Source of the DNA: Vicia villosa
Lineage: Eukaryota; Streptophyta; Magnoliopsida; Fabales; Fabaceae
Length of the DNA stretch: 64,000 nucleotides
Assembly: GCF_029867415.1 (NCBI RefSeq)
Contig: NC_081185.1
Coordinates: forward strand, 44,276,766-44,340,765
Direction: 5' to 3'
The first letter of the stretch is position 1, and each line of letters starts with the position of its first letter. Made by a program: the position numbers and the translations under genes. Below are positions 8,220 through 52,200 of this stretch, one piece after another. The notes under the pieces are model-generated. The model was not told the origin of the DNA and searched no databases. It worked only from the letters and a program-made list of their open reading frames with translations.

Positions 8220-8779
8220 TGTAGTATCCCTAATTACTAGTCACCACTAATTATGCTAATGTTGGTAATTAGGTGTGATTATGGTGGTTGATAATTAGAG
8301 GAGGGTGATTAGAATGGAGTTAGTAAGATTACTCTTGTGTAAGATTTAAGAGAAGATTAGTAAGGTAATGACTTGGTCAAGTGAAGATAGCATGATTAGT
8401 AAATAAGGATTAAGTCTTAATCCAAGAGCTAATCTAGAAGTGGCATCATTAGTAATTAAGCCTTAGTGTCAAGGGCATTTGGATAATTGAATGGAATATT
8501 ATTTAAGTCAGAAACCAAGAGAAAAACCTCATTATCTCATTTCCATTATCTCTCTAAAAATCAGAATTTGAAGAGAAGAAAGAGTTTAGAGAGTGAGAGG
8601 GTGGGAGAAGGAGATGAAGAGAAGAAGAAGAAGAAGTCCACTCTCATCAAACCTCCATGGATGCGTGTGCAAGATGTTTGAGGATAACAAGGTTTTGACC
8701 TCATGAATCAAGCTTGGTTTAGTAGTCACCATCCTCTCTCCATCAATCAACAGAAGTGAGAATCTTCATCATCAATAAG

Positions 8780-10121
8780 GTGAGTTCCATTAGTTAGGAA
8801 CTTGGGGTAGGATTTGGGAACTTTGCATGATTAAGGGTTTAGACTGTGATTAATATCTTGCATGATGATTTAATCGGTCAAATATCAGTTCTTTTGATGC
8901 AATTGTATGATATGGAATGTTGAAATAGGATGGTGTTCAAATTTGGATTGTTAGGGAACCTATGGATGAGTTAGAACACTATTGGAACTGGTTTTATGCA
9001 AGAAAAATGTGATTTTTGCTTCTAGTTCAGTAAGCAATCGATTGCAGGGGTCAAGCAATCGATTGCGCTGTGAAAAATTGGCTTTCTGCGCTTCTGGTTC
9101 AGTGAGCAATCGATTGCACACTAGTGCAAATCGATTGCACCTGACAAAAAATCATCCCTTTACTGTTTCGACCATAACAGGAGTTCTGTAACTCAAAATT
9201 GGGCGCCACCGGAGGCATTGGAAAGCTAACAAAAAGGGATACGAGAAGCTTAATCTTCCACAATATTATCATACTATTAATTATTAATCAAATCCATGTG
9301 AATATTCTTGTACCTTGATTAGTAAAGATAAGGCTTGGATAATTGATTTGTTAATCATTCTAAAGGCCTTCGCGCCCGAGTGTTCCTTCAACTAGGTTGT
9401 AGACATCATGGAATGAGAAGTGATAGAAAATCAAAGCTAGATACATACACTAAAGATGTTTAGGTCTTATAGCTTGTGAAGTATTTCCAAGGATGCCCCT
9501 GTGCCATATATATTGCAGGCATTCCTCGAGTGTGTGATCTGAGGAATGGGCCGTGCTCCATAGTTCAGGAGCTATTCTTCGGGGATGAACTCCTGGAGAT
9601 GTGGGCCACACCTTCTCCCTTTCTCATCTCTTTGAGGGTGAATTTCTATGTGAGATTTGGGCCCTAGGATATTGGAGGAGTTGAATCGTGTGATACGATT
9701 CAATGTCGATTCCATGGTTCTCTATAATCATATGATTTACTTACCATGTAGATTGAAAAGGTATGCTTTTAGGTCTTGTTTCCGAGAGCAGATAGGCAGG
9801 TAATCCTGGAAGACCAGACCTTGAGGGTAGCTCCCAACAGAAGGTTGGAAGGTAAGTCTGGAAGACCTATTCTGGAGGAAACATGTACCTGATATTCGAA
9901 CATGTGATAGGTTCTTAGAGAATCCAATCGGGTGGTCAGTGGACACTCAATTGTGGTGCTACGAGTTAATAGGCTTTCCTATACTGGATAGTGATGAAAC
10001 CTTAGGATCTGAGATGGATCTGTAGTTTATGTATATACCCAGTAGAGCCGAGAGGACCCATAAGATAGGGGAACTCACTGAGATTTAGTAATCTCACCCC
10101 ATTCATCTTATTATTTTTCAG
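8780..10121 (+). other. Putative LTR-leader intron, family A
   Basis: AAG|GTGAGTT at 8779/8780 is a near-perfect plant splice donor, and TTATTTTTCAG|G ending at 10121 is a strong acceptor. Both are kept in the second LTR (donor at 13950, acceptor at 53533). Splicing would remove the palindrome module. Not proven; needs transcript data. Confidence 0.5.
9034..9227 (+). other. Paired-palindrome module, family A LTR
   Basis: Palindromes gcaatcgattgc lie at 9034-9045, 9055-9066 and 9106-9117, and gcaaatcgattgc at 9126-9138. Central CG positions are 9039, 9060, 9111 and 9132, giving spacing 21-51-21. Anchors gtaactc (9188) and ggaaagct (9220) follow 32 nt apart. The second LTR repeats the layout (centres 14208, 14229, 14280, 14301; anchors 14357 and 14389), with its first site mutated. 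Confidence 0.9.
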
Positions 10122-10388: not shown

Positions 10389-13379
10389 CTGGTCGACCCT
10401 CGACCTAGCTGTGAGGCATTATTAGCAAACCTCCTTCTTCCTTATATATGTATGTTTCTAGATCGATTCTACTATCATGTTATTTAGTTGTTGAACTTGA
10501 TCAACTCACCAACTGGATACGTGATAGGTAGGATCGTGGCAGAGCTGCCACGGGGATGCGTTAGCCCCGAAGTGACTCGTGTGGTAGCAAAGGTCCAGTA
10601 AGGAATAGTTGATACCCCAGCTGTTGTGGTAAGGCCTAAGAAGACTAGAGTTCTAAGATTTCAATTGGATGGAGTGAACCTTCTCTAGAATCTTTGTAGT
10701 AGTGAAGTCGATCCATGAAGCACCTGAGTAGGAATGAAGTAGGGAAATTCCGTGATGAAGCTGAGATTGAAGCCATTAGGAATTCGTTACTCGATCATGG
10801 TGCCAGTAACAAACATGGACAGAGAAACCGTTGGACTGAAGACTTTGGGAGTTGGACAGAGATATTGGATCTTTCTAATTACTCTGGCCTAGGAAGTACT
10901 TGAGTGGATAAGATCTTTACACTCCGACTCGTTCTGGTGTACCTTAAGAGGTGAGTAGTCATATAGTGAATGGTTGATGGGACGAGTGGAATTGGTGACC
11001 TCCAATTTGGAAATCTAGGATATCTGATTTGGTGAAAGAAACTACTGCATCTCCTTGTTATTCTAAAATGAGTGAGTCCTAGAACTACGCTAGGCGGCAA
11101 CTGAGTGGATGGATATGGAGAATGCAGTAATCCCTGTTCCCTGCTAGTTGTGAATCATCTAATCTCGAGTGAAGCCGTAAAACTACGCTAGGTGTTGGGT
11201 ACTTAGATGAATTGAACTAGTGGTTGTCTAAAGCAGCAGTAGGTTGAATGCAATAGATGACTATTATTTGTAACCATAATATTCCTATATGGTGGGTGTT
11301 ATCATTGTAAATCTCTCGTGTGTGCCCTGTGTGAGTGAGTACATACTTGACATATGAACTCGAACTGGATTTGTAGTGAGTCAGATCTAGTTTGTTGCGT
11401 TCAATGGAGGTTAACCTTAAACGTGTGATTGGAAGGATATGAGTAGCGATGACCTCCGTTGAGATATGTTCAATCATCGTCAGTCGTGGCTATAGGATAT
11501 GGGTGTGGACCGTTATACACTACTGGGTAGGTTACTTGAGTGCATGGCCTCAGAGTTGGACCACCATGTTAGTACTACCAGACAGGTATAGCGCCACAGT
11601 ATCACTATCGTGCACGAGGCGCGTGAGTCGTCCTTTCCCGACAGATGTGGGACATTGTGATCTGGAACTCAAGGTAACATGAGATTGGTATTCGTGAGAT
11701 GTGAATCCAGATTCTCATACGGTAGGCGGGATAAGAATCCATATGTTGCACTCAAGGATTGGGGACTATGCGAGCAGGCAACAACGAGGTGAATTAGATT
11801 CTAATGCTACGCTATGAGGAGACCTTGAACGGCCGGGACCGCTTGAGAATTTTTGGATTTTACATAGTAGATAATTCTTGTTCCGTTAGAGTTAGTGAAC
11901 CTTTTGGCGTAATGTTCTAGATGGGATATGTGTGTGATCATCATATTCCGACCAACGCATTATGTGACTATTATTTAACATTAGTGATTAATGTTAGAAT
12001 GGACGAAGTATGTCTTGGGTTAGCTCGATGGGAGATGTATCGAGGGGAGTATCTGAAGATCCTCCGAAGTTAAATAAGGTCAGCCTCAGTAAGCAGAGGC
12101 ACATTGGTTTGGGAGTGTTGTCACTCCAACAATATAAATTCGTACGGTTGAGAAGAAACTGTATAAAATTTTGGAAGAGTTATCGTAGTTATACGATGTG
12201 GAAGTTGGTAAGGAAAGATGAACTCCTGTTCATTAAGTATATAGATATATATGTTCTGTAACCGAAGCATGCGACCAAGTTGTGTTTAAATGGACCTAAC
12301 ACATAATGATGAGGTAATTAGTGATCTAATTTTGGGAAATTACTCAACCTCGAGGAGTAGCTGGCTATTACTGTGTTGAGGACTGAGTGCGCGTGGTGTG
12401 GATGGACGTCAAGGAAAGAAGTTGATGTTGAGAGAGTAAGGGAAATGAAACTATCATTTGAGTCTACTGCTGGAGCAAGTCGATTTACAGTGGATGTACA
12501 TCGATTTGGTCTTTGGGAAATGAGTTTTGGGCAATAATGCAGTCAGTAAATCGATTTACATAAGGTGCAAATTGATTGTTGTCTGAATGGTAGTGGAAAA
12601 TCAGCAAGTTGTTGCTTGTGATGACTTTATTGGTTCGAACCTAACTTGAGCATCACATATCAGATTGGCATATGGTTGTTATTTCATCTTGAGATATATG
12701 ATGGGTATTCAGGAGTAACGTGTCTAGCTTTAGACGTTTTCGGATGAATTGGGAAGACTGAGATGACACTCAATTGGGTTTAGCCAAGGATTAATTGTGG
12801 TAACCTAATATCAGGGAAGACTTGATCAAAGTTGTTGGGTGGATAAGGCATTAATGATGAATTATCGGTATTGGGAGGAATAACTAAGATCCATAATGAA
12901 GCAAAGTGGTTACAAAGACTAGTGCTCATGTAGAAGAATTATATTAATGGAAATTTGAGTGTCATCAGTAGCCAATCTAGAAGAAGTAAGTGGAACAAAT
13001 AAGACCTTATAGAGTATTGAACAAGTTAAGATCAAAGGTTATTGCAGGAAACGTTAAGTAGAAGACGCCAAACGGAGTCAAGAGAACAGCCTCTACTAAG
13101 GTTGTACCTTGTACACTAGTGTTGTAAGTTGATTGGGTGATTAAAAGGAGATTTGACAGATCATCCATCTCATGCTTATTAAACTTATGTACTAGGACAA
13201 TTCATTGCAAGGACTTTCCAAGTTTAGGATACTATGAAGAATCACTAGAGTGCTAACACCCCTATGAGTAGTGTGATTCGTAATGGAACACGGATTGGAG
13301 AGAATAGAATGTTTATCGGAAGCATGGTAAGAAGTATCCTCACTGTGATTAAGAGAAAATTCAAGGACGAAATTTAATT
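10389..13379 (+). other. Family A internal region, first copy, no coding capacity
   Basis: About 3 kb with only short, unrelated ORFs. No gag, protease, RT, RNase H or integrase motif could be read in any frame. Segments 10389-10607, 11698-12275 and 12530-12545 recur in the second internal copy (53802-54623). Near the right end (about 13350-13375) the string 'aaggacgaaattt' is the conserved sequence that precedes the PPT in Tekay-type elements. A diverged paired-palindrome module lies at 12477-12577. Confidence 0.7.
12477..12577 (+). other. Diverged paired-palindrome module inside the family A internal region
   Basis: Sites tcgattta, atcgattt, aaatcgattt and aaattgatt have their central dinucleotide at 12481, 12502, 12552 and 12573: spacing 21-50-21, almost the LTR pattern. 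Further on (about 12634-12680) ttcgaacctaac and cagattgg resemble the block behind the LTR palindromes. Confidence 0.6.
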
Positions 13380-13392: not shown

Positions 13393-14568
13393 TGTAACAT
13401 CCCTAATTACTAGTCACCACTAATTATGCTAATGTTGGTAATTAGGCGTGATTATGGTGGTTGATAATTAGAGGAGGGTGATTAGAATGGAGTTAGTAAG
13501 ATTACTCTTGTGTAAGATTTAAGAGAAGATTAGTAAGGTAATGACTTGGTCAAGTGAAGATAGCATGATTATTAAATAAGGATGAAGTCTTAATCCAAAA
13601 GCTAATCTAGAAGTGGCATCGTTAGTAATTAAGCCTTAGTGTCAAGGGCATTTGGATAATTGAATGGAATATTATTTAAGTCAGAAACCAAGAGAAAAAC
13701 CTCATTATCTCATTTCCATTATCTCTCTAAAAATCAGAATTTGAAGAGAAGAAAGAGTTTAGAGAGTGAGAGAGTGGGAGAAGGAGATGAAGAGAAGAAG
13801 AAGAAGTCCATTTTCATCAAACCTCCATGGATGCATGTGCAAGTTGTTTGAGGATAACAAGGTTTTGACCTCATGAATCAAGCTTGGTTTAGTAGTCACC
13901 ATCCTCTCTCCATCAATCAACAGAAGTCAGAATCTTCATCATCAATAAGGTGAGTTCCATTAGTTAGGAACTTGGGGTAGGATATGGGAACTTTGCATGA
14001 TTAAGGGTTTAGACTGTGATTCAAGTCTTGCATGATGATTTATCGGTCAAATATCTGTTCTTTGGATGCAATTGTATGATATGGAATGTTGAAATAGGAA
14101 GGGGTTCGAATTTGGATTGTTGGGGAACCTATGGATGAGTTAGAACACTATTGGAACTGGTTTTATGCAAGAAAAATGTGATTTTTGCTTCTGATTCAGT
14201 AAGAAATCGAATGCAGGGGTCAAGCAATCGATTGCACTGTGAAAAATTGACTTTCTGCGCTTCTGGTTCAGTGAGCAATCGATTGCACACTAGTGCAAAT
14301 CGATTGCACCTGACAGAAAATCACCCCTTTACTGTTTCGACCATAACTGGAGTTCTGTAACTCAGAATTGGACGCCGTCGGAGGTATTGGAAAGCTAACG
14401 GAAAGGGCTACGAGATGCTTAAGCTTCCACAATATTATTATACTATTAATTATTAATCCAATCCATGTGAATATTCTTGTACCTTGATTAGTAAAGATAA
14501 GGCTTGGATAATTGATTTGTTAATCATTCTAAAGGTCTTCGCGCCCGAGTGTTCCTTCAACTAGGTGG
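13393..14568 (+). repeat. Family A second LTR, segment 1 of 3
   Basis: Collinear with 8220-9396 of the first LTR and interrupted at the ggtgg target site (14564-14568) by the SIRE-type array. Contains its own copy of the palindrome module at 14203-14396. Confidence 0.9.
14564..14568 (+). repeat. Target-site duplication of the SIRE array (left; right copy 31030-31034)
   Basis: ggtgg occurs exactly at both outer ends of the three-LTR array and nowhere at its inner LTR borders. This shows a single integration event followed, or accompanied, by tandem duplication. Confidence 0.9.
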
Positions 14569-15783
14569 TGAAGGATAGAAAAACACTTAGAAAGGGGGGT
14601 TTGAATAAGTGTAGCTTTAAAAACTTGACAGATAAAAATAAATTGCACAGTTATTTTTATCCTGGTTCGTTGTTAACTAAACTACTCCAGTCCACCCCCG
14701 CAGAGATGATTTACCTCAACTGAGGATTTAATCCACTAATCGCACGGATTACAATGGTTCTCCACTTAGTCAGCAACTAAGTCTTCCAGAGTCTTATGAT
14801 CACACACTGATCACTCCAGGAACAACTGCTTAGATACCCTCTAAGACTTTCTAGAGTATACTGATCCACACGATCACTCTAGTTACAACCTGCTTAGATA
14901 ACCTCTAAGACTTCCTAGAGTATTCTGATCCACACGATCACTCTAGTTCCTTACAACTTAATGTAATCAATTCTAAGAGTATTACAATTGCTTCTTAAAA
15001 GCTATAATCACAAACTGTGATATTTCTCTTAACGTTTAAGCTTAATCTCACTAATATATTACAACAGCAATGTAGTGAGCTTTGATGAAGATGAAGATTC
15101 TGAGCTTTGAGTAGAACAGAGTTTCAGCAAGTTAATATGAGTTGTTTTGGTGCAGAATCGTTAAAATCATTAACCTTGCTTCTCATCAGAACTTCATATT
15201 TATAGGCGTTGGAGAAGATGACCGTTGAGTGCATTTAATGCTTTGCGTGTTCCGTACAGCATCGCATTTAATGTTATACGCTTTTGTCAACTACCTCGAG
15301 CCTTGTTCACGCTGTGTCTACTGACGTAGCCTATAATAGCTTTTAACGTTCCTTTTGTCAGTCAGCGTAGCTTGCCACTTGTACTTCCTTCTGATCTGAT
15401 GTTTGTGAATACAACGTTTGAATATCATCAGAGTCAAACAGCTTGGTGCAAAGCATCTTCTGATCTTCTGACCTTGAAGTGCTTCTGAGCGTGATACCAT
15501 CAGAACTTCAGTGCTTCTGATCTCATGTTCTTCTGATGCTTCCATAGACCCATGTTCTGATTCTGCTTCGACCATCTTCTGATGTCTTGCCAGACCATGT
15601 TCTGATGTTGCATGCTGAACCCTTTGAGACAAAGCTTCTGAGCGCTGAATTATGCGTACTCTTTATATATTCCCTGAAAAGGAAATTGCATTGGATTAGA
15701 GTACCATATTATCTTAAGCAAAATTCATATTATTGTTATCATCAAAACTAAGATAATTGATCAGAACAAATCTTGTTCTAACA
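14569..15783 (-). repeat. SIRE-type LTR 1 (element 3' end)
   Basis: On the minus strand it begins tgttagaacaagattt and ends ctatccttca. It differs from LTR 2 at two positions that I could see (about 14667 and 14797). It carries TATA tatttata (plus-strand reading) at 15197-15204 and two catttaatg boxes upstream of it on the minus strand. A 17-nt hairpin (agaacaa-atc-ttgttct, 15763-15779) sits at its terminus. Confidence 0.95.
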
Positions 15784-15797
15784 ATCTCCCCCTTTTT
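15784..15797 (-). other. Polypurine tract of SIRE copy 1
   Basis: On the minus strand gaaaaagggggagat directly precedes the LTR. Copy 2 has its equivalent at 23406-23418. Confidence 0.85.
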
Positions 15798-15897
15798 CAT
15801 GATGACAAAAACATATATAAATGATATGAATTTGCGATCAGAAAGAGCAGACGGCAAAAGACAAATTACACAGCTATAGCATAAGCATATGAATATG

Positions 15898-15950
15898 TCT
15901 CCCCCTGAGATTAACAATCTCCCCCTGAGATAAATAATCTCCCCCTGAAA
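15898..15950 (-). repeat. Three PPT-like repeats downstream of the extra ORF
   Basis: On the minus strand 'tcagggggaga' occurs three times at about 20-bp intervals, each like the true PPT core aggggg agat. A further PPT-like site with similar flank lies at 16741-16757. Copy 2 repeats these at +7622. Confidence 0.8.
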
Positions 15951-16025
15951 TAAATACTCGAAGAACTTTAATAAAAGACTTCCCTGATTATTTCGGTAGA
16001 GACGATCACATAAGCTTCTGTCTTT

Positions 16026-16235
16026 AGAGAATTCATAGCTTCTGACTTCTGCTTCCATTGGACAGCTTCAGAACTAGAATTTCTTTAGATCCCTAGAACA
16101 CTCACAGCTTCTGATTCCTGCTTCCATCTAGGACAGCTTCAGAACTTGAGTTTTCTGGATCTTTAGAACATTCACAGCTTCTGATTTCTGCTTCCCTCGG
16201 ATAGCTTCAGAGCTTTGAATTTCTACCAACATCAC
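16026..16235 (-). repeat. Tandem repeat, about 70 bp x 3, SIRE copy 1
   Basis: Units starting at 16026, 16095 and 16165 share 'agaacattcacagcttctga' and 'gacagcttcagaact' with a few changes. They lie in the non-coding part between the extra ORF and the PPT. The region is saturated with ttctga/tcagaa. The same array is at 23648-23857. Confidence 0.85.
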
Positions 16236-16915
16236 TTCATGCTAGATTTGTATCAGAACATTGTTGAATGTACCAGAGCATCATCAGAGCATCTCTACAT
16301 CCTGAAATGTTACAGAACAAAAACTAAACGACAAAAGTCAGCATGAACGAGTCAGAACATAAAATGTATATTAGAACACATGATATGTATCAGAGCCATA
16401 TAGGCTAAAATAATGTATCAGAGCAAATAGAATTTTGTCAAAGCAAATAGACAAATATGGATCAAATTCTATTATCAGTGCTTCTGATTCATTCTTCTTT
16501 CTTGCTTCTGATTTCTGAAGCTTGATAGAACTCAGCTTGCTTCAGTTTCCATGAGTTTATTCTTTTTACAGAATAACACTTCTTATGGTTTTGCTTCTTG
16601 TGTTTGCTTTGAAGATTCTCTTCACTTCTTTATACCTGCAAAACACTTAAGCCATATAGAACTTGCAGTTCTTGTTAGTAAATGTGTGGGAGCTTTACCC
16701 AGCAACTGATAGATTAATCAAATCATTTATCATTTATCTTCTCCCCCTTTTTGTCATAACATCAAAAAGAATATTTCAAAAGATTCAGATGCAAAGCAAG
16801 AGACAAAAGGAAAGAAACACAAATAACTTTTCATTGATTCCAACAAGAAAGATTACAAAAGAGGAATGCAGGAAAACAGATGCAACAAGGAAAGAAAACT
16901 ACACAGACCAAAAGA
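16236..16915 (-). other. Non-coding 3' region of SIRE copy 1
   Basis: No ORF with support. Rich in dispersed tcagaa/ttctga hexamers. Ends next to the stop codon of the 387-codon ORF. A second PPT-like stretch is at 16741-16757. Confidence 0.6.
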
Positions 16916-18079
16916 CTAAGATCCTAGCCTACGCAAAATCCGCGCCAGAACATCATGAATCCCGTCAGTGCTTGTAGCTTGCCTTGCCATGAAAGAGCGA
17001 AACTCAGCATTGGCTACTTCTTGCGTGTCCAAACGAGAAGCCAGCATAGCTTGATTCTGATGAAGAGCTTCCAAGGTCTCCATCAGAGCTGAGGTTTCAC
17101 CAGAAGAAGAGGCACCTGAATTTCTGCCAAAAGGGACAGCAATCTCAGCAGGGTGATCTTCTGGGAGATCTTCAGCTTGTGCATCTTCCATTTCCTCATC
17201 TGAGTCTGACTCAGAAGTAGCCTTAGCATATTCTGGTTCAGGCAGCTCAGAAGTTCCATCTTCCAACGCTTGAAGAATAGCTGCTAGGTTTGTTGGAGGA
17301 GTAGGACCAGCAACTTCAGCAGGATAAACCACTACTGGAAAGACCGTGTGAGGTGCTTTTTCAGAAGGGTTCATTCTGAACCAGTTGAATAGCCACTGAA
17401 AATCTCCAGTCAGCACAGGAAACCATGGTTTCCACACCACGATGTCTCTGCAGAGATTTTCTTCTTCTTCCAACTCATCTGCAGGTACCTTCTTCTCAAG
17501 AACACTTCTGTTCCTGATGAGATGGTGATAGCTGCTTTCACCAGCTTCCAACCGAAGACCACGAATACCAGGAGCTTCAGACATGATCCTTCTCTGAGTG
17601 TCTGTAGCCCTAACCAGAAAATCCTGACGAAAGGTATCCCAAAGGTTGCTTGTAGCATACTCATCCAGATGGTTAAGGTGAGCAGCACCCAGAATCTCCA
17701 ACCAGCCATTTACATCAGAATGTAAAAGCTCCAGATATGATTGAGTGGTAGGGGTTGGAGGGTTGACAGTGAACCTGGAGTCGGGAAGAACAACACTATA
17801 GGGATTAGGTGTTCTGGTGGGAAAAGGGTGTGAGAGAGATGACGAAATAACTGATGGATGGGTTGAAGGAGAGGAGATATCAGATGGTGAAGAAGGTGGT
17901 TCCGAGAGGATGAATGAGGAGGAAGAGGTGGTGGAGGTCTTTGAAGAGGGAGGTGATTGAGGGGTACCGTCAAGGGAGGTGATCCTTACTCTTTTTGGTT
18001 TGGTTTCTGGATCAGCAGTTGCCTTTCTCTTTTGTTTCCGATCATTATCTTGATTCCCAGAGCTTGACGATGGATTCAT
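16916..18079 (-). CDS. Extra ORF (387 aa) of SIRE copy 1, unknown function
   Basis: I do not recognise the family. It sits where SIRE/Maximus elements carry an 'env-like' extra ORF, but I see no signal peptide or membrane helix. Residues 14-32 are strongly basic (RKQKRK...KPKRVR), a plausible bipartite nuclear signal. Residues about 35-110 are low-complexity S/T/P. About 115-270 look globular (SYLELLHSDVNGWLEILGA, FQWLFNWFRMNP). About 289-312 are acidic (ESDSDEEMEDAQAED). The C-terminal 55 residues are helical (ALMETLEALHQNQAMLASRL). The start Met has its own upstream leader with a telo-box and TATA-like site rather than being fused to pol. Copy 2 differs at one residue (T here, M there at about 245). 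Confidence 0.75.
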   Translation of the reverse strand: MNPSSSSGNQDNDRKQKRKATADPETKPKRVRITSLDGTPQSPPSSKTSTTSSSSFILSEPPSSPSDISSPSTHPSVISSSLSHPFPTRTPNPYSVVLPDSRFTVNPPTPTTQSYLELLHSDVNGWLEILGAAHLNHLDEYATSNLWDTFRQDFLVRATDTQRRIMSEAPGIRGLRLEAGESSYHHLIRNRSVLEKKVPADELEEEENLCRDIVVWKPWFPVLTGDFQWLFNWFRMNPSEKAPHTVFPVVVYPAEVAGPTPPTNLAAILQALEDGTSELPEPEYAKATSESDSDEEMEDAQAEDLPEDHPAEIAVPFGRNSGASSSGETSALMETLEALHQNQAMLASRLDTQEVANAEFRSFMARQATSTDGIHDVLARILRRLGS

Positions 18080-18400
18080 GATGAAGTTGCAGATATTGGA
18101 AACTACTAGGGTTTATGATATGAATGTAAAGAGAGAGAACGAAAAAGAAACTGAATGCAAAGTGAGAGAAATATAAGAGGGAAAAGAAACGTTTGAAGAA
18201 TATAAAAAGAAAACTGAAAGAGAGTAAATGATGAAAAGCATTTAATGTTACGTGACGTGAGGAGAGATAATAATGACAAAAGACGTGATTTGCACAGTTA
18301 CCTAAGTAGACGTCCCCTCAACTGCACGCACGCTTGTCCAGGAATAGTGAACACGTGTTTACCATCTGGATGGCCAGTTACAGCTGTTTTGCTTTTAAAG
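18080..18400 (-). promoter_or_regulatory. Stand-alone promoter-like region of the extra ORF, copy 1
   Basis: Read on the minus strand toward the ATG at 18079: ACGT cores (acacgtgtt, gacgtct, cacgtcac, 18240-18360), a catttaatg-type box, a TATA-like tcttatattt (about 18172), a CT-rich leader, and the telo-box aaaccctag (18107-18115). This order is that of an ordinary plant gene promoter and 5' UTR. Copy 2 repeats it at 25702-26020. Motif-based inference. Confidence 0.5.
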
Positions 18401-18523
18401 AGATTCTGAATCAACTTAGACAATGAAACGTTAGTGATAACTGAATCACAATTTCTAATTGATTTCAATCAGAACTTCTTATAAAAAAATTCATTTCAGA
18501 AGATACTCATACATAAGAACTTC

Positions 18524-20300
18524 TCATCTTCTCATTCTGAGCTTGTTTCTGAAGACCCATTTTGTACCGATTATATTGAATCCATCTGGTCTAGGAACAA
18601 GATCCCAAACATCATTCCTTGTAAACTGATTCAGTTCTTCTTGCATAGCAATTATCCAGTCTGGATCTTCTAGAGCATGATCAACAGAAGTTGGCTCGAT
18701 CAAGGATACAAGACCTAATTGACAGTCTGCATTGTTCTTAAGGAATGCTCTTGTTCTGATAGGATCATCCTTCTTTCCAAGAATAACATCTTCTGAATGA
18801 CCAGAGATGAGTCTGGATGATCTTCTGACAGATGGTTCTTCAGAAATGCTTAGATCCTCCAGAGAAGCTGATACTTGATCTTCCGATTCTTTGCTTCTGA
18901 GAAGCTCTGCTTCTGATGCGTTGCTTCTTGGCTCAACAACTTCTGATATATCAATATCACAATCTGCAAAATTATCAAACTGCTTTGGTTTTTCAGAACC
19001 AAGCTTATCATCAAACCTGATATTGATTGATTCTTCTACAATCAATGTTTCAGTATTGTATACTCTGTAGCCTTTTGAGCGTTCAGAATATCCAAGAAGG
19101 AAACATTTTTGTGCTTTGGAATCAAACTTACCAATATGATCTTTAGTGTTCAGAATAAAGCATACACATCCAAAAGGATGGAAATATGAAATGTTGGGCT
19201 TTCTATTCTTCCACAATATAAGGAGTCTTATTTAGAATAGGTCTGATAGAGATTCTATTCTGAATATAGCATGCAGTGTTTATTGCTTCTGCCCAGAAAT
19301 GCTTAGCCATATTGGTTTCATTGATCATGGTTCTGGCCATTTCTTGCAGAGTCCTATTCTTTCGTTCTACAACTCCATTTTGCTGTGGAGTTCTAGGACA
19401 AGAGAAATCATGGGCAATACCATTTTCTTTGAAGAATTCTTCAAAGGATCTGTTCTCAAATTCACCACCATGATCACTTCTAACCTTTATGATTTTACAC
19501 TCTTTTTCAGATTGAATCTGAATGCAGAAATCAAAGAACACTGAATGAGACTCATCCTTGTGTTTCAAGAATTTTACCCACGTCCAGCGGCTATAATCAT
19601 CTACGATGACTAATCCATATTTCTTCCCTCTGACAGATGCTGTTTTGACTGGGCCAAACAGATCAATGTGCAAGAGTTCTAATGGCCTTGAGGTAGAAAC
19701 AACATTCTTGGACTTGAATGCAGGTTTGGAGAACTTGCCCTTCTGACATGCTTCACAAAGAGCATCTGATTTGAATTTCAGATTAGGGAGTCCTCTGACA
19801 AGATCCAGTTTGTTAATCTGAGAAATCTTTCTCAAACTAGCATGACCTAATCTTCTGTGCCAGACCCACTGCTCTTCAGAAACAGACATAAGACAAGTCA
19901 CCTTCTGACTCATAAGATCTTGCAGATCTGTCTTATAAATGTTGTTCTTCCTCTTGCCTGTAAATAGGATTGAGCCATCCTTCTGATTTACAGCCTTGCA
20001 AGACTTTTGATTAAAGATTATATCATAACCATTGTCACTCAATTGACTGATAGATAAGAGGTTATGTGTTAATCCTTCTACAAGAAGTACATTAGAAATG
20101 GAAGGAGAGTTACCAGACTTTATAGTTCCAGAGCCAATTATCTTGCCCTTCTGATCTCCTCCAAACTTGACTTCTCCTCCAGACTTAAGCACCAGGTCTT
20201 GGAACATAGACCTTCTTCCTGTCATGTGTCGTGAGCATCCAGAGTCCAGGTACCACGACATGTTGTGCTTTGTCCTTTTTGCAGCCAAGGATATCTGCAA
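18524..20300 (-). pseudogene. Protease-integrase ORF of SIRE copy 1, frameshifted by a 2-bp deletion
   Basis: Same protein as copy 2 (26146-27924) but split: the N-terminal 365 residues (20300 to 19203) contain the DSG protease motif, the HHCC pre-integrase zinc region and the complete D-D-E core. The frame then shifts at about 19217, where two bases present in copy 2 are missing (ccacaat-ata here). The C-terminal part resumes at 19216 and ends after the RT N-terminus (GTKWVFRNKL). Other differences from copy 2 are L for M after HID of the integrase and I for L in the middle of the linker. Only a protease-integrase fragment could still be made. Confidence 0.85.
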
Positions 20301-22104
20301 TAGGAATAATCTTATCCTTAGGTACCCACATTTTCTTGGGTCCTTTCTTGTTAGTTTTTCTCAAGTTCTGATTGAACTTGGGTTTAACATTGTAAGCAAT
20401 AGGAGGAACAGCATGATAATTTTTAATGTGAGTTTCATGATATTTCCTATGTTGTGTCACATGCTTTTTGGTGTGTGTTATGTGAAAACTTTGAGCATGT
20501 GAAGTGTGCCTAATATCATGGGAGTGGCCATACTTGAACTGATCATACAATGGCTTGTATGTGAATTTCATTTCATCAACAGGTTCAAGTTTGTATGGGT
20601 TTTCACCCTCAAAACCAATGCCGACTCTTTTGTTTCCAGACACAGCATATATCATAGAAGCTAGCTGACTTCTGCCAATACTTCTAGATAAGAACTTCCT
20701 GAAACTTAAATCATATTCTTTCAGAATATGGTTTAGACTGGGAGTGGATTTTTCTGAATCAGAAGGAGATCCAACATTATTGGATAATTTTAAAAGTTTT
20801 TCTTTTAATTCAGAATTTTCCAACTCAAGCTTCTTTGTTTCAAATTCAAATAGCTTTTTCAGCTTTTTGTATTTGAGACTAATCTGAGACTTGAATTCCA
20901 AAAGTTCTGTTAGACCGGAAACTAACTCATCTCTAGTAAGTTCAGAAAATACCTCTTCAGAATCTGATTCTGATGTAGATTCTGATCCGTCATCTTCTGT
21001 CGCCATCAGCGCACAGTTAGCCTGCTCATCTTCAGAGTCTGAATCATCTTCTGACTCATCCCAGGTTGCCATAAGACCTTTCTTCTTATGAAACTTCTTC
21101 TTGGGATTTTCCTTCTGAAGTTTTGGACATTCATTCTTGAAGTGTCCAGGCTCATTGCATTCATAGCACATGACCTTCTTCTTGTCAAATCTTCTGTCAT
21201 CAGAAGATTCTCCACGTTCAAATTTCTTTGAACTTCTGACGCCTCTGAACTTCCTTTGCTTGTTCTTCCAGAGTTGATTTAGCCTTCTGGAGATCAAGGA
21301 CAGTTCATCTTCTTCTTCAGATTCTGATTCTTCAGGATCTTCTTCTCTAGCCTGAAAAGCGTTAGTGCATTTCTTGATATTGGATTTTAATGCAATAGAC
21401 TTACCTTTCTTTTGAGGCTCATTTGCGTCCAGCTCTATTTCATGGCTTCTCAAGGCACTGATAAGCTCTTCCAGAGAAACTTCATTCAGATTCTTTGCAA
21501 TCTTGAATGCAGTCACCATAGGACCCCATCTTCTGGGTAAGCTTCTGATGATCTTCTTTACGTGATCAGCCTTGGTGTATCCCTTGTCAAGAACTCTCAA
21601 TCCAGCAGTAAGAGTTTGAAATCTTGAAAACATCTTTTCAATGTCTTCATCATCCTCCATCTTGAAGGCTTCATACTTCTGGATTAAAGCGAGAGCTTTA
21701 GTCTCCTTGACTTGAGCATTTCCTTCATGAGTCATTTTCAAGGACTCATATATGTCATAGGCCGTTTCCCTGTTAGATATCTTCTCATACTCAGCATGAG
21801 AGATAGCATTCAGCAAAACAGTTCTGCATTTATGATGATTCCTGAAAAGCTTCTTCTGATCATCATTCATTTCTTGCCTTGTCAGCTTTACGCCACTGGC
21901 ATTTACTGGATGTTTGTAACCATCCATCAGAAGATCCCATAGATCACCATCTAGACCAAGAAAGTAACTTTCCAGTTTATCTTTCCAGTATTCAAAGTTT
22001 TCACCATCAAATACCGGCGGTCTAGTATAACCATTGTTACCGTTGTGTTGCTCAGCAGAGCCAGATGTAGATGCAGGTGTAGACTTTGCAGTTTCATCAA
22101 CCAT
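20185..22104 (-). CDS. gag: Gag of SIRE copy 1 (639 aa)
   Basis: The protein forms the virus-like particle. It starts at an ATG 67 bp after the PBS. Residues about 25-230 match the copia-type gag (UBN2-like: NFEYWKDKLESYF, AYDIYESLKMTHEG, RWGPMVTAFKIAKNL). A CCHC zinc knuckle begins at C313 (CYECNEPGHFKNEC), followed by acidic, serine-rich and coiled-coil stretches. The last ~38 codons overlap the protease frame, which lies +1. Intact here and in copy 2; one residue differs (A/T near 130). With no frame-shifting or readthrough, only gag would be produced from this ORF. Confidence 0.9.
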   Translation of the reverse strand: MVDETAKSTPASTSGSAEQHNGNNGYTRPPVFDGENFEYWKDKLESYFLGLDGDLWDLLMDGYKHPVNASGVKLTRQEMNDDQKKLFRNHHKCRTVLLNAISHAEYEKISNRETAYDIYESLKMTHEGNAQVKETKALALIQKYEAFKMEDDEDIEKMFSRFQTLTAGLRVLDKGYTKADHVKKIIRSLPRRWGPMVTAFKIAKNLNEVSLEELISALRSHEIELDANEPQKKGKSIALKSNIKKCTNAFQAREEDPEESESEEEDELSLISRRLNQLWKNKQRKFRGVRSSKKFERGESSDDRRFDKKKVMCYECNEPGHFKNECPKLQKENPKKKFHKKKGLMATWDESEDDSDSEDEQANCALMATEDDGSESTSESDSEEVFSELTRDELVSGLTELLEFKSQISLKYKKLKKLFEFETKKLELENSELKEKLLKLSNNVGSPSDSEKSTPSLNHILKEYDLSFRKFLSRSIGRSQLASMIYAVSGNKRVGIGFEGENPYKLEPVDEMKFTYKPLYDQFKYGHSHDIRHTSHAQSFHITHTKKHVTQHRKYHETHIKNYHAVPPIAYNVKPKFNQNLRKTNKKGPKKMWVPKDKIIPIADILGCKKDKAQHVVVPGLWMLTTHDRKKVYVPRPGA

Positions 22105-22171
22105 CTTTTACTGAAGCGTTTTTCTCTTCATGAATCTTTTCTAAACACGGTTAAGTGCTTGCACCTTAGAA

Positions 22172-22188
22172 CCGGCGCTCTGATGCCA
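22172..22188 (-). other. Primer binding site of SIRE copy 1
   Basis: Minus-strand tggcatcagagcgccgg, 2 nt inside the central LTR, matches the initiator tRNA-Met PBS tggtatcagagc with one change at position 4. Confidence 0.8.
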
Positions 22189-22190
22189 AT

Positions 22191-23405
22191 TGAAGGATAG
22201 AAAAACACTTAGAAAGGGGGGTTTGAATAAGTGTAGCTTTAAAAACTTGACAGATAAAAATAAATTGCACAGTTATTTTTATCCTGGTTAGTTGTTAACT
22301 AAACTACTCCAGTCCACCCCCGCAGAGATGATTTACCTCAACTGAGGATTTAATCCACTAATCGCACGGATTACAATGGTTCTCCACTTAGTCAGCAACT
22401 AAGTCTTCCAGAGTCTTCTGATCACACACTGATCACTCCAGGAACAACTGCTTAGATACCCTCTAAGACTTTCTAGAGTATACTGATCCACACGATCACT
22501 CTAGTTACAACCTGCTTAGATAACCTCTAAGACTTCCTAGAGTATTCTGATCCACACGATCACTCTAGTTCCTTACAACTTAATGTAATCAATTCTAAGA
22601 GTATTACAATTGCTTCTTAAAAGCTATAATCACAAACTGTGATATTTCTCTTAACGTTTAAGCTTAATCTCACTAATATATTACAACAGCAATGTAGTGA
22701 GCTTTGATGAAGATGAAGATTCTGAGCTTTGAGTAGAACAGAGTTTCAGCAAGTTAATATGAGTTGTTTTGGTGCAGAATCGTTAAAATCATTAACCTTG
22801 CTTCTCATCAGAACTTCATATTTATAGGCGTTGGAGAAGATGACCGTTGAGTGCATTTAATGCTTTGCGTGTTCCGTACAGCATCGCATTTAATGTTATA
22901 CGCTTTTGTCAACTACCTCGAGCCTTGTTCACGCTGTGTCTACTGACGTAGCCTATAATAGCTTTTAACGTTCCTTTTGTCAGTCAGCGTAGCTTGCCAC
23001 TTGTACTTCCTTCTGATCTGATGTTTGTGAATACAACGTTTGAATATCATCAGAGTCAAACAGCTTGGTGCAAAGCATCTTCTGATCTTCTGACCTTGAA
23101 GTGCTTCTGAGCGTGATACCATCAGAACTTCAGTGCTTCTGATCTCATGTTCTTCTGATGCTTCCATAGACCCATGTTCTGATTCTGCTTCGACCATCTT
23201 CTGATGTCTTGCCAGACCATGTTCTGATGTTGCATGCTGAACCCTTTGAGACAAAGCTTCTGAGCGCTGAATTATGCGTACTCTTTATATATTCCCTGAA
23301 AAGGAAATTGCATTGGATTAGAGTACCATATTATCTTAAGCAAAATTCATATTATTGTTATCATCAAAACTAAGATAATTGATCAGAACAAATCTTGTTC
23401 TAACA
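22191..23405 (-). repeat. SIRE-type LTR 2 (shared central LTR)
   Basis: 1215 bp. It serves as the 5' LTR of copy 1 and the 3' LTR of copy 2: a PBS lies on its left and a PPT on its right. It has the consensus base at all four positions where LTR 1 or LTR 3 differ. No target-site duplication flanks it. Confidence 0.95.
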
Positions 23406-24537
23406 ATCTCCCCCTTTTTGATGATGACAAAAACATATATAAATGATATGAATTTGCGATCAGAAAGAGCAGACGGCAAAAGACAAATTACACAGCTATA
23501 GCATAAGCATATGAATATGTCTCCCCCTGAGATTAACAATCTCCCCCTGAGATAAATAATCTCCCCCTGAAATAAATACTCGAAGAACTTTAATAAAAGA
23601 CTTCCCTGATTATTTCGGTAGAGACGATCACATAAGCTTCTGTCTTTAGAGAATTCATAGCTTCTGACTTCTGCTTCCATTGGACAGCTTCAGAACTAGA
23701 ATTTCTTTAGATCCCTAGAACACTCACAGCTTCTGATTCCTGCTTCCATCTAGGACAGCTTCAGAACTTGAGTTTTCTGGATCTTTAGAACATTCACAGC
23801 TTCTGATTTCTGCTTCCCTCGGATAGCTTCAGAGCTTTGAATTTCTACCAACATCACTTCATGCTAGATTTGTATCAGAACATTGTTGAATGTACCAGAG
23901 CATCATCAGAGCATCTCTACATCCTGAAATGTTACAGAACAAAAACTAAACGACAAAAGTCAGCATGAACGAGTCAGAACATAAAATGTATATTAGAACA
24001 CATGATATGTATCAGAGCCATATAGGCTAAAATAATGTATCAGAGCAAATAGAATTTTGTCAAAGCAAATAGACAAATATGGATCAAATTCTATTATCAG
24101 TGCTTCTGATTCATTCTTCTTTCTTGCTTCTGATTTCTGAAGCTTGATAGAACTCAGCTTGCTTCAGTTTCCATGAGTTTATTCTTTTTACAGAATAACA
24201 CTTCTTATGGTTTTGCTTCTTGTGTTTGCTTTGAAGATTCTCTTCACTTCTTTATACCTGCAAAACACTTAAGCCATATAGAACTTGCAGTTCTTGTTAG
24301 TAAATGTGTGGGAGCTTTACCCAGCAACTGATAGATTAATCAAATCATTTATCATTTATCTTCTCCCCCTTTTTGTCATAACATCAAAAAGAATATTTCA
24401 AAAGATTCAGATGCAAAGCAAGAGACAAAAGGAAAGAAACACAAATAACTTTTCATTGATTCCAACAAGAAAGATTACAAAAGAGGAATGCAGGAAAACA
24501 GATGCAACAAGGAAAGAAAACTACACAGACCAAAAGA
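23406..24537 (-). other. PPT and non-coding 3' region of SIRE copy 2
   Basis: Near-identical to 15784-16915: PPT 23406-23418, three PPT-like repeats at 23520-23572, 70-bp tandem repeats at 23648-23857. One difference is g for c at about 23420. Confidence 0.85.
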
Positions 24538-25701: not shown

Positions 25702-26020
25702 GATGAAGTTGCAGATATTGGAAACTACTAGGGTTTATGATATGAATGTAAAGAGAGAGAACGAAAAAGAAACTGAATGCAAAGTGAGAGAAATATAAGA
25801 GGGAAAAGAAACGTTTGAAGAATATAAAAAGAAAACTGAAAGAGAGTAAATGATGAAAAGCATTTAATGTTACGTGACGTGAGGAGAGATAATAATGACA
25901 AAAGACGTGATTTGCACAGTTACCTAAGTAGACGTCCCCTCAACTGCACGCACGCTTGTCCAGGAATAGTGAACACGTGTTTACCATCTGGATGGCCAGT
26001 TACAGCTGTTTTGCTTTTAA
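25702..26020 (-). promoter_or_regulatory. Stand-alone promoter-like region of the extra ORF, copy 2
   Basis: As at 18080-18400: ACGT-rich segment, TATA-like site, CT-rich leader and telo-box aaaccctag just upstream of the ATG, in plant-promoter order. Confidence 0.5.
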
Positions 26021-26145
26021 AGAGATTCTGAATCAACTTAGACAATGAAACGTTAGTGATAACTGAATCACAATTTCTAATTGATTTCAATCAGAACTTC
26101 TTATAAAAAAATTCATTTCAGAAGATACTCATACATAAGAACTTC

Positions 26146-29728: not shown

Positions 29729-29795
29729 CTTTTACTGAAGCGTTTTTCTCTTCCTGAATCTTTTCTAAACACGGTTAAGTGCTTGCACCTTAGAA

Positions 29796-29812
29796 CCGGC
29801 GCTCTGATGCCA
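29796..29812 (-). other. Primer binding site of SIRE copy 2
   Basis: Same 17-nt sequence as at 22172-22188, directly inside LTR 3 (two-base spacer). Confidence 0.8.
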
Positions 29813-29814
29813 AT

Positions 29815-32587: not shown

Positions 32588-33780
32588 CATTTTGCTCTTC
32601 ACAAATCAAGGGGGAACTCTCACAATTTCAATTCACCAAAAGTTCAAAAACACTTTCTCTCAATTCTCTCTCAATCCTCTTGAATCAAAACCACAAATTA
32701 CATAGAACTTTCATCAAGATTCATCTATTTCCACCAAGATCAAGAACATGGATTGAAGAATCAAGATCGAAGTTCGAATTTCTCTTCCTCTCTCCACATA
32801 GAGTTGCGCGCCCTCTCTCTCTCTCTCTCTCACTTTGGATTCCGCGTTCGAGTTCGTGTCGCGTTCGTGTCGTGTTCGCGTTCGTATCGTGTTCGTGTTC
32901 GCGCTTCGGTTAGATCTTCATCCGATAAGCTTTCGGATCTTGAATTAAGTGCTTAATTGTTGATTATTATGTGAATTCGAATCTAGATCTACCTCTTGTT
33001 CTTGATTAATGGATGATTGATGATGATTGATCGGTGAATTTGTTCGTATTTTGCCCGAATTTGTCGTGTTCATGCGAATTGTGGTTGAATTTAGTATTGA
33101 TTGCATATAATTGATATCCGTTGATGATGAATTGTGACATTTGTGTATGGATCCTTGATTCGGTGTTGATTTTGTATGCATAATTGTTAAAATTCATGTA
33201 TGTTACTTGTGTCGCACTCAAAGTGTTTGTACAAATGCATGTGATAACTTTTTGCTCGATAAATGCCTTGCTTGATGCTATATGTTGTGTAGCTTGATCA
33301 CTATCGCGTGTGCAAATACTTGTTGCCTTTGTTGCATTCATGTAATTGTTGGTGATAATATTTGAATTGTGGTTTGGCTTGACGCGTCGCACTTTGCCCG
33401 ATTTGTTGTTATTTGACCTAATTGACTTGTGGATTCATGACTATCCTTCGCCAAGATGCTTTGTGCCTAATCGTTGAGAGCGATACATTTTTGGCTTGTG
33501 CTTAATCATTGAAATCGATATATGTGTGGTTTTGTTGCTTTGGTGCTTAAGGATTGTTCACTTATTGCTAATAGCATGCCTCACATTAATATTTGGTTTA
33601 CATATTCTCATATGCCATTGATTGTTACCGTGATATCGTGCTTTGTTTCCATGGGTGTTTCATTGTGTTTTGAATGTGTTTTGATGGCTTTTCATGATGC
33701 TTACAAGTTGGCATTGTTTCAAGTTGAGTGGAATTGGTTCCCAAACATAAAAAATAGCAAAAAAGTGTTTTTCTACAGCA

Positions 33781-33973
33781 GAACCCGGTTCCTAGGATGG
33801 AGGAACCGGTTCCCAGGTGTTTCGTTTGTGTTTGTCACTGTTTTTTGGACCAGGAACCGGGTTGTCCATTCCAGGAACCGGTTCCCCTGTCTGTTTCTTT
33901 TTCCTAACTTCTATCCTACGTAACTTTTTACTCGTAACTCCGATTTGCACGTTCTTTATATCGTCGGAAAGCT
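33781..33973 (+). other. Paired-palindrome module, Ogre-like LTR
   Basis: Palindromic sites gaacccggttcc, ggaaccggttcc, ggaaccgggtt and ggaaccggttcc have centres at 33786, 33807, 33858 and 33879: spacing 21-51-21, identical to family A. gtaactc (33934) and ggaaagct (33966) follow, again 32 nt apart. The right LTR repeats it (centres 51313, 51334, 51385, 51406; anchors 51461 and 51493). Confidence 0.9.
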
Positions 33974-49205: not shown

Positions 49206-52200
49206 TGTTGCACCCTAAAATTTGCCCTCTTTACTTGAGCTATAAGCTATTAACGACGTTTATTTCGTCACTCAAAAATTGAAGAAAAATAATAAAGAGT
49301 TTTCATGGGTTTAAGAAGAAAGGCGTGAAAAATGGTCTAAACTGTGGAAATACAAGAAAATTCGCAAGTCATGTTTGGAAGGTGATATGAACTAAACTCT
49401 CGCGTTGTCCTGACCATTTCGACGATATCTACAACTTTCGTGTTCGGCTCGGAAGCCAGTTCTTTGAGGAAGGTCTCTGGATTTACAATTTACTTGAGGT
49501 GTCGCAGTGAAAAACAGTGCTGAATGTAGGGTTTTGGACCTCGGAAGATGCATATCTCCCAATCCGCTCGTCGGAATCGCTTGAAAATTTAACTCGAGCT
49601 CCGTACCATCATTACCAAGATTTCATATGTTCGGACCGAAGGCCAATTATGCACGGAAAATTCCCAGAATTTTAAGGATCGTCGCGTTGTTTCGGTAAAA
49701 AGTGTGTTTTCGAGTATGTCGCGCCTAGTTTGAAAATTCATAACTTCTTCGATTTTTATCATATGAAGTCCATTCTGGCGGCATTTACTTGGAAATTTCG
49801 TTATCTTCGATTCTTCGTCACACATGCTTGTTCAGATTTTGAGCCGAAGATAGGGTTTTATCGAGTTCTTTGAGCGGTACTCACAAAATTCTGCACAGTC
49901 GCACCAGATGAATCGACGTTTCTCGTCATTCAAATGCGTGTAATTTTTGCATCGCTTATCGGATTGAGACGATTCTCACGGCGACGAGTCAAGAATTTGG
50001 TCATCTTCACAGTGGCATCGGTTTCGTTCCGGGATTCAAAGCCGAACCGAGTTTCCTTAAAAACGAGCCAAAATAAGACGCACCGAGGGCAATTTGGACA
50101 TTTCGCGTTGACAATATATAAACATTTTGCTCTTCACAAATCAAGGGGGAACTCTCACAATTTCAATTCACCAAAAGTTCAAAAACACTTTCTCTCAATT
50201 CTCTCTCAATCCTCTTGAATCAAAACCACAAATTACATAGAACTTTCATCAAGATTCATCTATTTCCACCAAGATCAAGAACATGGATTGAAGAATCAAG
50301 ATCGAAGTTCGAATTTCTCTTCCTCTCTCCACATAGAGTTGCGCGCCCTCTCTCTCTCACTTCGGATTTCGCGTTCTAGTTCGTGTCGCGTTCGTGTCGT
50401 GTTCGCGTTCGTATCGTGTTCGTGTTCGCGCTTCGGTTAGATCTTCATCCGGTAAGCTTTCGGATCTTGAATTAAGTGCTTAATTGTTGATTATTATGTG
50501 AATTCGAATCTAGATCTACCTCTTGTTCTTGATTAATGGATGATTGATGATGATTGATCGGTGAATTTGTTCGTATTTTGCCCGAATTTGTCGTGTTCAT
50601 GCGAATTGTGGTTGAATTTAGTGTTGATTGCATATAATTGATATCCGTTGATGATGAATTGTGACATTTGTGTATGGATCCTTGATTCGGTGTTGATTTT
50701 GTATGCATAATTGTTAAAATTCATGTATGTTACTTGTGTCGCACTCAAAGTATTTGTACAAATGCATGTGATAACTTTTTGCTCGATAAATGCCTTGCTT
50801 GATGTTATATGTTGTGTAGCTTGATCACTATCGCGTGTGCAAATACTTGTTGCCTTTGTTGCATTCATGTAATTGTTGGAGATAATATTTGAATTGTGGT
50901 TCGGCTTGACGCGTCGCACTTTGCCCGATTTGTTGTTATTTGGCCTAATTGACTTGTGGATTCATGACTATCCTTCGCCAAGATGCTTTGTGCCTAATCG
51001 TTGAGAGCGATACATTTTTGGCTTGTGCTTAATCATTGAAATCGATATATGTGTGGTTTTGTTGCTTTGGTGCTTAAGGATTGTTCACTTATTGCTAATA
51101 GCATGCCTCACATTAATATTTGGTTTACATATTCTCATATGCCATTGATTGTTACCGTGATATCGTGCTTTGTTTCCATGGGTGTTTCATTGTGTTTTGA
51201 ATGTGTTTTGATGGCTTTTCATGATGCTTACAAGTTGGCATTGTTTCAAGTTGAGTGGAATTGGTTCCCAAACATAAAAAATAGCAAAAAAGTGTTTTTC
51301 TACAGCAGAACCCGGTTCCTAGGATGGAGGAACCGGTTCCCAGGTGTTTCGTTTGTGTTTGTCACTGTTTTTTGGACCAGGAACCGGGTTGTCCATTCCA
51401 GGAACCGGTTCCCCTGTCTGTTTCTTTTTCCTAACTTCTATCCTACGTAACTTTTTACTCGTAACTCCGATTTGCACGTTCTTTATATCGTCGGAAAGCT
51501 TATGAGATGTACTATCTAGCTAGATGCTTTGTTTTCATTAATTTGTAGATCATCCATGTTTGATTTCTCTTTGACTTTTCATTGTCCATTTCATGTTTAC
51601 ATTACTTGTCTGTTTCCTTTCGCTATTAGTAATAACGCAATTCCGATTGCGATGTTTGTTATCTCTAACTTGTGTGCTAGTGTGCAAGGCTTATGGATAG
51701 TCACTGACCGGCGCTTATTGCTTGAGTGTTCCGCTTCACATGCGGAACACGATTTCCTTCATTCGTATTGTGTTCTCATCTCGGAGACACGATCCTCTTG
51801 CTTTATATCTGCTTGTTTGGTTTGCTTGTTCCTCTTGCAGGTGTATTGTGATTGCGCTTGACGCGCATGTCGACCTTTATGTGCTTTCATGGCTAATCGG
51901 TGTGCTGACCATTTGCTTTTGCTTTGCTAGCTCACTCGCAGGATTCTTAGTTTCTTCGCTTTGCTTCACTTTAGTTTACGGATCATCATCCGTTCAGTAT
52001 TGATTCCGTTTCATTTTATTTCTCTCGCACTTTATCGCTTTCTCGCATCATCCTTTAACATGAGAAGTAGGACCTAGACATGCATCTGGCCAAGTCCTCG
52101 AAAGAGGCTCTGTTTTTGTTGGTGTGTTTATATTTGTGCTTTGCGGCAGGGAGTCACGGTGTAATAAGTCCTATATGGCACTCCGTTAAGTCCTCATGGA

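Follow-up and report, generated by a model that had tools for sequence, protein, structure and literature searches.

The LTR retrotransposons of Vicia villosa carry arrays of short palindromic sites whose spacing is real and general. The sites and their spacing are found with three palindromes, at thousands to tens of thousands of places in the genome, and the symmetry of the sites is limited to 12 bp. On balance, we think that the module is a cis-regulatory DNA array of LTR retrotransposons, i.e. a set of predicted sites for a homodimeric DNA-binding protein, and that such arrays most likely act on LTR transcription.

Palindrome arrays in the window

The window, i.e. the whole stretch of 64,000 nucleotides that was analysed, carries the module in LTRs that we call family A and Ogre-like. 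The lineage names are unconfirmed because the pieces tested yielded no coding sequence for either family A or Ogre-like; family A may be of the Ty3/gypsy type, a guess from the start of its LTR. The family A 5' LTR bearing the module lies at 8220..9754 on the plus strand (by self-comparison, with approximate ends), and further pieces of it recur at 13393-14566, 31022-31116 and 31389-31670. A Copia-type element of the form LTR-internal-LTR-internal-LTR (Retrotran_gag_2 and zf-CCHC on the minus strand) occupies 14569-31029, where it is apparently inserted into the A 3' LTR; its halves are 99.85% identical.

The original prediction placed four sites in each of three LTRs, with centres spaced 21-51-21. 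Self-comparison agreed with this for the family A 5' LTR (centres 9039, 9060, 9111 and 9132), and the same spacing holds, as claimed, in the second family A LTR (14208, 14229, 14280 and 14301) and in the Ogre-like 5' LTR (33786, 33807, 33858 and 33879). The Ogre-like 3' LTR has the 21-51-21 spacing again, with centres at 51313, 51334, 51385 and 51406. Sites 1, 2 and 3 of the A 5' LTR are GCAATCGATTGC (9034..9045, 9055..9066 and 9106..9117), whereas site 4 is the imperfect CAAATCGATTGC (9127..9138). The A 3' array (14203..14307) consists of GAAATCGAATGC at 14203, GCAATCGATTGC at 14224 and 14275, and CAAATCGATTGC at 14296. The array of the Ogre-like 5' LTR (33781..33885) consists of GAACCCGGTTCC at 33781, GGAACCGGTTCC at 33802 and 33874, and GGAACCGGGTTG at 33853. 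A weak fifth site stands upstream of site 1 in both families, by 50 bp in A (GGAACTGGTTTT, 8984..8995) and by 51 bp in Ogre-like (GGAATTGGTTCC, 33730..33741), and the Ogre-like 3' array (51257..51412) has the same five sites as its 5' counterpart. In other words, there are 4 or 5 sites per LTR in family A and Ogre-like.

The earlier description needs some correction. Self-complementary sites of 12 nt were claimed throughout, and perfect palindromes are indeed present at 3/4 sites of A5', at 2/4 of A3' and at 2/4 of each Ogre-like LTR; the remaining sites deviate from the palindrome, and sites 1 and 3 of the Ogre-like array are odd-length variants (AACCCGGTT, AACCGGGTT). The statement that the sequence changes completely between families does not apply to A and Ogre-like, as both cores match AAYCGRTT; an unrelated version, GTCGAC, is present elsewhere in the genome. 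A third, decayed module, absent from the earlier description, lies at 12476..12579 with centres spaced 21-50-21; it contains TAAATCGATTTA at 12547 and the decayed copies CAAGTCGATTTA at 12476, TACATCGATTTG at 12497 and CAAATTGATTGT at 12568. For the word AAYYRRTT the commonest spacings in the window are 72 (7 cases) and 21 (4 cases).

An LTR box of the form RTAAC...GTAACTC...GGAAAGCT was observed directly 3' of some arrays. In the A 5' LTR it reads ATAACA...GTAACTC...GGAAAGCT (9174..9227, plus strand, with GGAAAGCT at 9220); the others are at 14343..14396 in the A 3' LTR and at 33920..33973 and 51447..51500 in the Ogre-like 5' and 3' LTRs, all on the plus strand. A pattern that names no palindrome (RTAACT, then GGAAAGCT or a close form within ~60 bases) had 4 matches in the window and 2 in a 200-kb blind sample, and an array was directly upstream in 6/6. 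Not every array is accompanied by the box, however: GGAAAGCT occurs in 4/15 loci from the search with the exact 12-mer pair, the pattern has no match in loci L121-L125, and in the third module the box is broken.

Spacing across the genome and host elements

The blind sample consisted of twenty 10-kb stretches taken at round coordinates from the window's own 2.03-Gb genome, with no palindrome named. In the 264 kb made up of the window and these stretches, the commonest distances between paired palindromic 12-mers were 72 (16), 22 (8), 21 (6), 144 (6) and 50 (5), and three first-order Markov replicas of the 264 kb contained 0 such pairs. A stricter array scan, which misses the Ogre-like LTRs and L118, returned seven arrays (both A LTRs, L104, L107 once, L110 twice and L117) and 0 in five Markov replicas. 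The layout is present in 3/20 blind stretches, namely L107 (two arrays of GTAACCGGTTAC, 22-50-22-50-22), L117 (22-30-22-50-22) and L118 (GTCGAC core, 22-50-53-21), all from the blind scan; the palindrome class of L118 recurs genome-wide in LTR-like layouts.

The blind sample also holds palindromic repeats with other or irregular spacing, among them GAGATGCATCTC (L104, L107, L109), AAAAGCGCTTTT (L110) and ACGTTTAAACGT (L105). Longer palindromes of the TTCGGAGATGCATCTCCGAA type are irregularly spaced at L104:1177-1345 and at L109:763-875 and 2120-2260. Dense AAAGCGCTTT palindromes at L110:6894-7363 have irregular spacings of 12-46 and 101 bp; one guess is that they represent the subterminal repeats of some DNA transposon.

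Repeat counts over the whole genome (2.03 Gb) are lower bounds. Pairs of the form AATCGATT-N{0,30}-AATCGATT (at most 38 bp) occur at at least 22,069 places, compared with 122 for the reversed control. AACCGGTT pairs occur at at least 8,243 places with N{0,30} (reversed control 1,495) and at at least 7,034 with N{31,61} (control 1,652), and both counts contain another kind of repeat, seen in 7 and 6 of the first 50 listed. The unrelated palindrome GTCGACCT, with N{0,30}, gave at least 22,300 and at least 22,485 places on the two strands (control 10 and 10), and the exact family A 12-mer pair with its 9-bp spacer gave at least 491 (control 0). As a side observation, TTGGCCAA pairs at most 38 bp apart number 1,495 genome-wide, far above TTAGCTAA (122).

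The spacings were read from the first-listed places on contig C1 only, where copies of one family recur and the places are not independent. Among the matches listed, the two sites of a pair were 21/22 bp apart in 48/50 cases for AATCGATT, 40/43 for AACCGGTT (7 places at 30 dropped) and 69/72 for GTCGACCT. The gaps between pairs were 50-53 bp in 18/19 listed cases for AATCGATT (one neighbour pair 144 bp apart dropped), 33/44 for AACCGGTT (6 at 66 dropped, and the search pattern restricts the gaps to 39-69) and 25/42 for GTCGACCT (dropped gaps: one of 0, two of 101 and two of 112). The dropped AACCGGTT rows are of the repeat type seen in L122, one of the 6 being judged by length alone. Gaps of 39-41 bp form a second class in GTCGACCT, with 16 of the 42 listed, compared with 0 for AATCGATT and 1 for AACCGGTT, and gaps of 42-49 bp are absent from these 42. 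The control palindrome GATGCATC is also repeated (at least 525 places vs 4 in its control), but 0/50 of its listed matches are at 21/22: the spacings are 25 (5), 28 (2), 30 (3) and 34-38 (40). The original prediction that the spacing stays constant across families while the palindrome differs is thus borne out by the genome counts and listed spacings for AATCGATT, AACCGGTT and the unrelated GTCGAC version.

The periodicity was expressed as resultant length, which for the 116 GTCGACCT spacings was 0.92 at 10.0 bp, 0.85 at 10.3 and 0.77 at 10.5. A set of 21 arrays with 86 spacings, most of these arrays having been retrieved by searching for such pairs, gave 0.83 at 10.2 and 0.80 at 10.5. We note that these values are dominated by the 21-bp class and that the best-fitting period varies with the set of spacings. 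A strict rule of whole helical turns is weakened by AACCGGTT gaps of 47, 49, 55 and 65, which are off whole turns.

Viral contigs gave 0 matches to a three-site pattern. Two-site patterns found 54 and 31 viral loci with no convincing four-site array, and we read the matches listed as chance, coding repeats or one shared viral sequence. Prokaryote genome contigs had 0 matches to a four-site pattern. Viral contigs L003, L004, L006, L022, L041, L043, L044 and L053 have in common a conserved AATCGATTCTAG...AATCGATTCTAG pair, which lies close to CATGTATGT and has a spacing of 21 bp; it is either a coincidence of spacing or a separate site of the viral contigs.

Arrays of the same layout recur at distances as would be expected of two LTRs in one element. 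Chosen examples are 6,984, 8,936 and 8,928 bp (GTCGACCT search), 5,978 and 5,519 bp (exact 12-mer pair search) and 4,696 and 6,425 bp (AACCGGTT search). In one copia family the LTR arrays are, as judged by coordinates, ~4.7 kb apart, a distance with little space for an extra gene.

L107 is a Sirevirus-like Ty1/copia element with gag (copia gag), a pol that contains RVT_2 and rve, and an ENV-like ORF; the sole Pfam match of this ORF, Transposase_32, is below the cut-off. Its first array has 6 sites upstream of gag, in what is from its position the presumed 5' LTR, ~115 bp before the TATA-like TATATAAA. The second array, with another 6 sites at 8811-8988, lies in the linker between pol and the ENV-like ORF. 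In L121 an array spaced 33-51-33 is within the open Ty1/copia pol frame, where it encodes four VTGY repeats. This array (L121:1-800) has its AACCGGTTACG...CGTAACCGGTT words in common with the arrays ~2.8 kb before and ~1.8 kb after it.

Duplex DNA, RNA pairing and descent

The dyad symmetry was examined in 103 sites, many of which were retrieved by pattern and hence have ascertained cores. Pairs 1-6 of the dyad are Watson-Crick in 87-99 of the 103 sites each and pair 7 in 43/103, i.e. the symmetry covers 12 bp. Beyond the 12-mer, flank complementarity across a site pair is 18/46 at position 7 and 21/46 at position 8, as against 39/92 and 36/92 within single sites. The joint change of the paired sites had been taken as covariation and hence as evidence of pairing in RNA or single-stranded DNA. 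We do not retain this argument, since complementarity stops at the 12-mer and is not clearly longer across pairs than within sites. Covariation is mimicked here because copies of one self-complementary word pair automatically, and the comparison of dyad and flank complementarity found no compensatory arm changes beyond one repeated palindrome. In L118 the identical word TGCGTCGACCTA is present in 4/5 sites even though it is self-complementary only in part, its outer bases deviating. Taken together, the 12-bp limit of the symmetry, the flanks with no clear added complementarity across pairs, the partial-dyad copies of L118 and the gaps of ~40 and ~51 bp, which differ by one helical turn, speak for dimers of a protein on duplex DNA.

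The predicted arrangement would be as follows. Each 12-bp dyad site would fit one homodimer of a sequence-specific DNA-binding protein. The sites of a pair, 21/22 bp apart, would be separated by two helical turns, and the pairs, with a further ~40 or ~51 bp between them, by about four or five turns. The bound dimers would then be on roughly one side of the helix and may act jointly on the LTR promoter. We infer that a protein binds these arrays, that its dimers cooperate, and that the arrays serve in transcription or help the element to escape silencing; the binder may be a protein of the host or of the element. The position of the L121 array is a point against, as a promoter role is less obvious inside a coding frame.

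A different reading is that the arrays work as RNA or single-stranded DNA: neighbouring sites would form 12-bp stems, or two RNA copies would pair with each other, in packaging, dimerisation or reverse transcription. The predicted RNA folds were better than those of shuffled sequences in 7/7 cases (z -2.1 to -9.8), and some arrays are in transcribed parts, i.e. between pol and the ENV-like ORF in L107 and in pol in L121. The hairpins between neighbouring sites that had been proposed earlier appear in the minimum-energy fold of 4/7 sequences (A3', the third module, L118 and L124) and in the L107 centroid; the minimum-energy folds of A5', Ogre-like and L107 differ and pair sites 1-4 and 2-3 instead. 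However, strong folds and hairpins tend to arise from any repeated palindrome. All arms are dyads in their own right, a property that is not required for a hairpin, there is no clear added complementarity past the 12-mer on the stem side, and the 40/51-bp gaps are almost as fixed as the spacing within pairs. Moreover, L118 retains four identical copies of a partial-dyad word. We consider a structural role in RNA or single-stranded DNA unlikely.

Slightly less likely, in our opinion, is simple inheritance, in which a single ancestral LTR module would have kept its spacing through descent and would have no present function. A comparable box follows the arrays of A, Ogre-like, L117 and L118, and in this region A and Ogre-like show measurable similarity. 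Their downstream identity is 0.47 as the best of 13 shifts and 0.26 in strict register, compared with a background of 0.243 (sd 0.044, highest 0.385), and the two are homologous in this stretch. The spacers between the palindromes behave otherwise: their identity is 0.373 against a background of 0.266 (sd 0.059), and 45/794 offsets are equally good. With the spacer identity near background and the array spacing unchanged, the sequence between the sites is therefore nearly randomised while its length is kept. Shared ancestry, which according to the original prediction would reduce the equal spacing to simple homology, is thus found downstream in A and Ogre-like; it does not account for the near-background spacers or for a copia element that has the geometry too, without a GGAAAGCT box at its arrays. 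It is also difficult to reconcile with descent alone that there is one palindrome per array and that the palindromes differ between arrays.

Relatives of family A were compared at 4 of the 15 fetched loci, two of which, L086 and L087, probably represent the LTR pair of a single element. The array was free of gap columns in 4/4, while upstream identity is 0.55-0.80. The palindromes keep 47 or 48 of 48 bases and the spacers 43-54 of 57; sites 1-2 are fixed by the search pattern and sites 3-4 are free.

Two further readings we regard as improbable. One involves host small RNAs: hairpins of LTR transcripts would feed silencing, or the palindromes would diversify to evade it. This was described for maize Sirevirus palindromes, which lie in the LTR regulatory region, have predicted structure and were read via RNA structure and small RNAs (Bousios 2016, as cited in PMC10760457 and PMC5311732). 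Our arrays are like them in LTR regulatory location and predicted structure, as far as the citing descriptions go, but small RNAs leave the fixed gaps between pairs unexplained. The least probable reading is a nucleosome-positioning or chromatin element with a 72-73-bp period of about half a nucleosome, which agrees with pair-to-pair distances of 71-74 in 18/20 (AATCGATT) and 12/13 (AACCGGTT) listed neighbouring pairs, whereas GTCGACCT arrays use 60-62 as well (16/47 among the matches listed) and positioning has no obvious need of 12-bp dyads.

Relation to known elements

The closest known kind is the repeated motif (RM) of Sireviruses. As described in the main text of PMC2829016 (Bousios et al. 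2010), RMs are multi-copy LTR palindromes that lie 5' of the TATA box and recur ahead of the ENV gene. The palindrome varies between elements and is called Sirevirus specific. A CGG-CCG core is reported, although the RM of Tnd-1, ACAATCGATTGT, is without it. The criteria are at least eight copies in the linker and 3' LTR, the clusters border CpG islands, and the RMs could not be assigned a shared binding site of any one factor there. The arrays described here are similar in that multi-copy palindromic dyads are found in the A and Ogre-like LTRs and in the presumed LTR of L107. L107 alone also has the RM placement, i.e. an LTR array before a TATA-like sequence and further copies upstream of an ENV-like ORF, and family A shares its core with the Tnd-1 RM ACAATCGATTGT as given in that text. 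In contrast, the CGG-CCG core was not seen here, the cores being AATCGATT, AACCGGTT and GTCGAC, and one spacing rule is common to three palindromes and to elements of more than one type. In the main text of PMC2829016, as distinct from its supplementary Figure S4, no distance rule between RMs was found.

A parallel of another sort is offered by the VANC target arrays of VANDAL transposons, which the part of PMC5735166 considered here describes as dense arrays of short, family-specific motifs bound by a sequence-specific protein. VANC is a TE-encoded anti-silencing protein, its 9-base motif has one orientation, and the motifs shift together between related elements. Family-specific motif arrays that change together between related elements are the common feature; the VANDALs differ in being DNA transposons with a single-orientation motif and a known TE-encoded protein. 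PMC6911290 was discarded as a match, as the palindromes in the part of it considered sit at insertion sites and not in LTRs.

Searches of the literature, mostly at the level of titles and the first lines of abstracts, found nothing on AACCGGTTCC together with a retrotransposon, no such geometry in plant LTRs, and no ruler common to different palindromes and element types. As far as the literature searched can tell, the known part is therefore the Sirevirus RM and the new part is the spacing common to different palindromes and element types.

A wider and more tentative reading, which is possible though we would not call it likely, is that one geometry has arisen by convergence, or by exchange, in unrelated LTR retrotransposons of plants (Ty1/copia and others). 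These would use one protein architecture, with a private palindrome as the address, i.e. a family-specific code for activation or for escape from silencing, both in the LTR and internally. As different palindromes and element types obey one spacing rule, the binder to look for would be a dimeric protein able to stack at two helical turns, and LTR control regions could be located in unannotated genomes from geometry alone.
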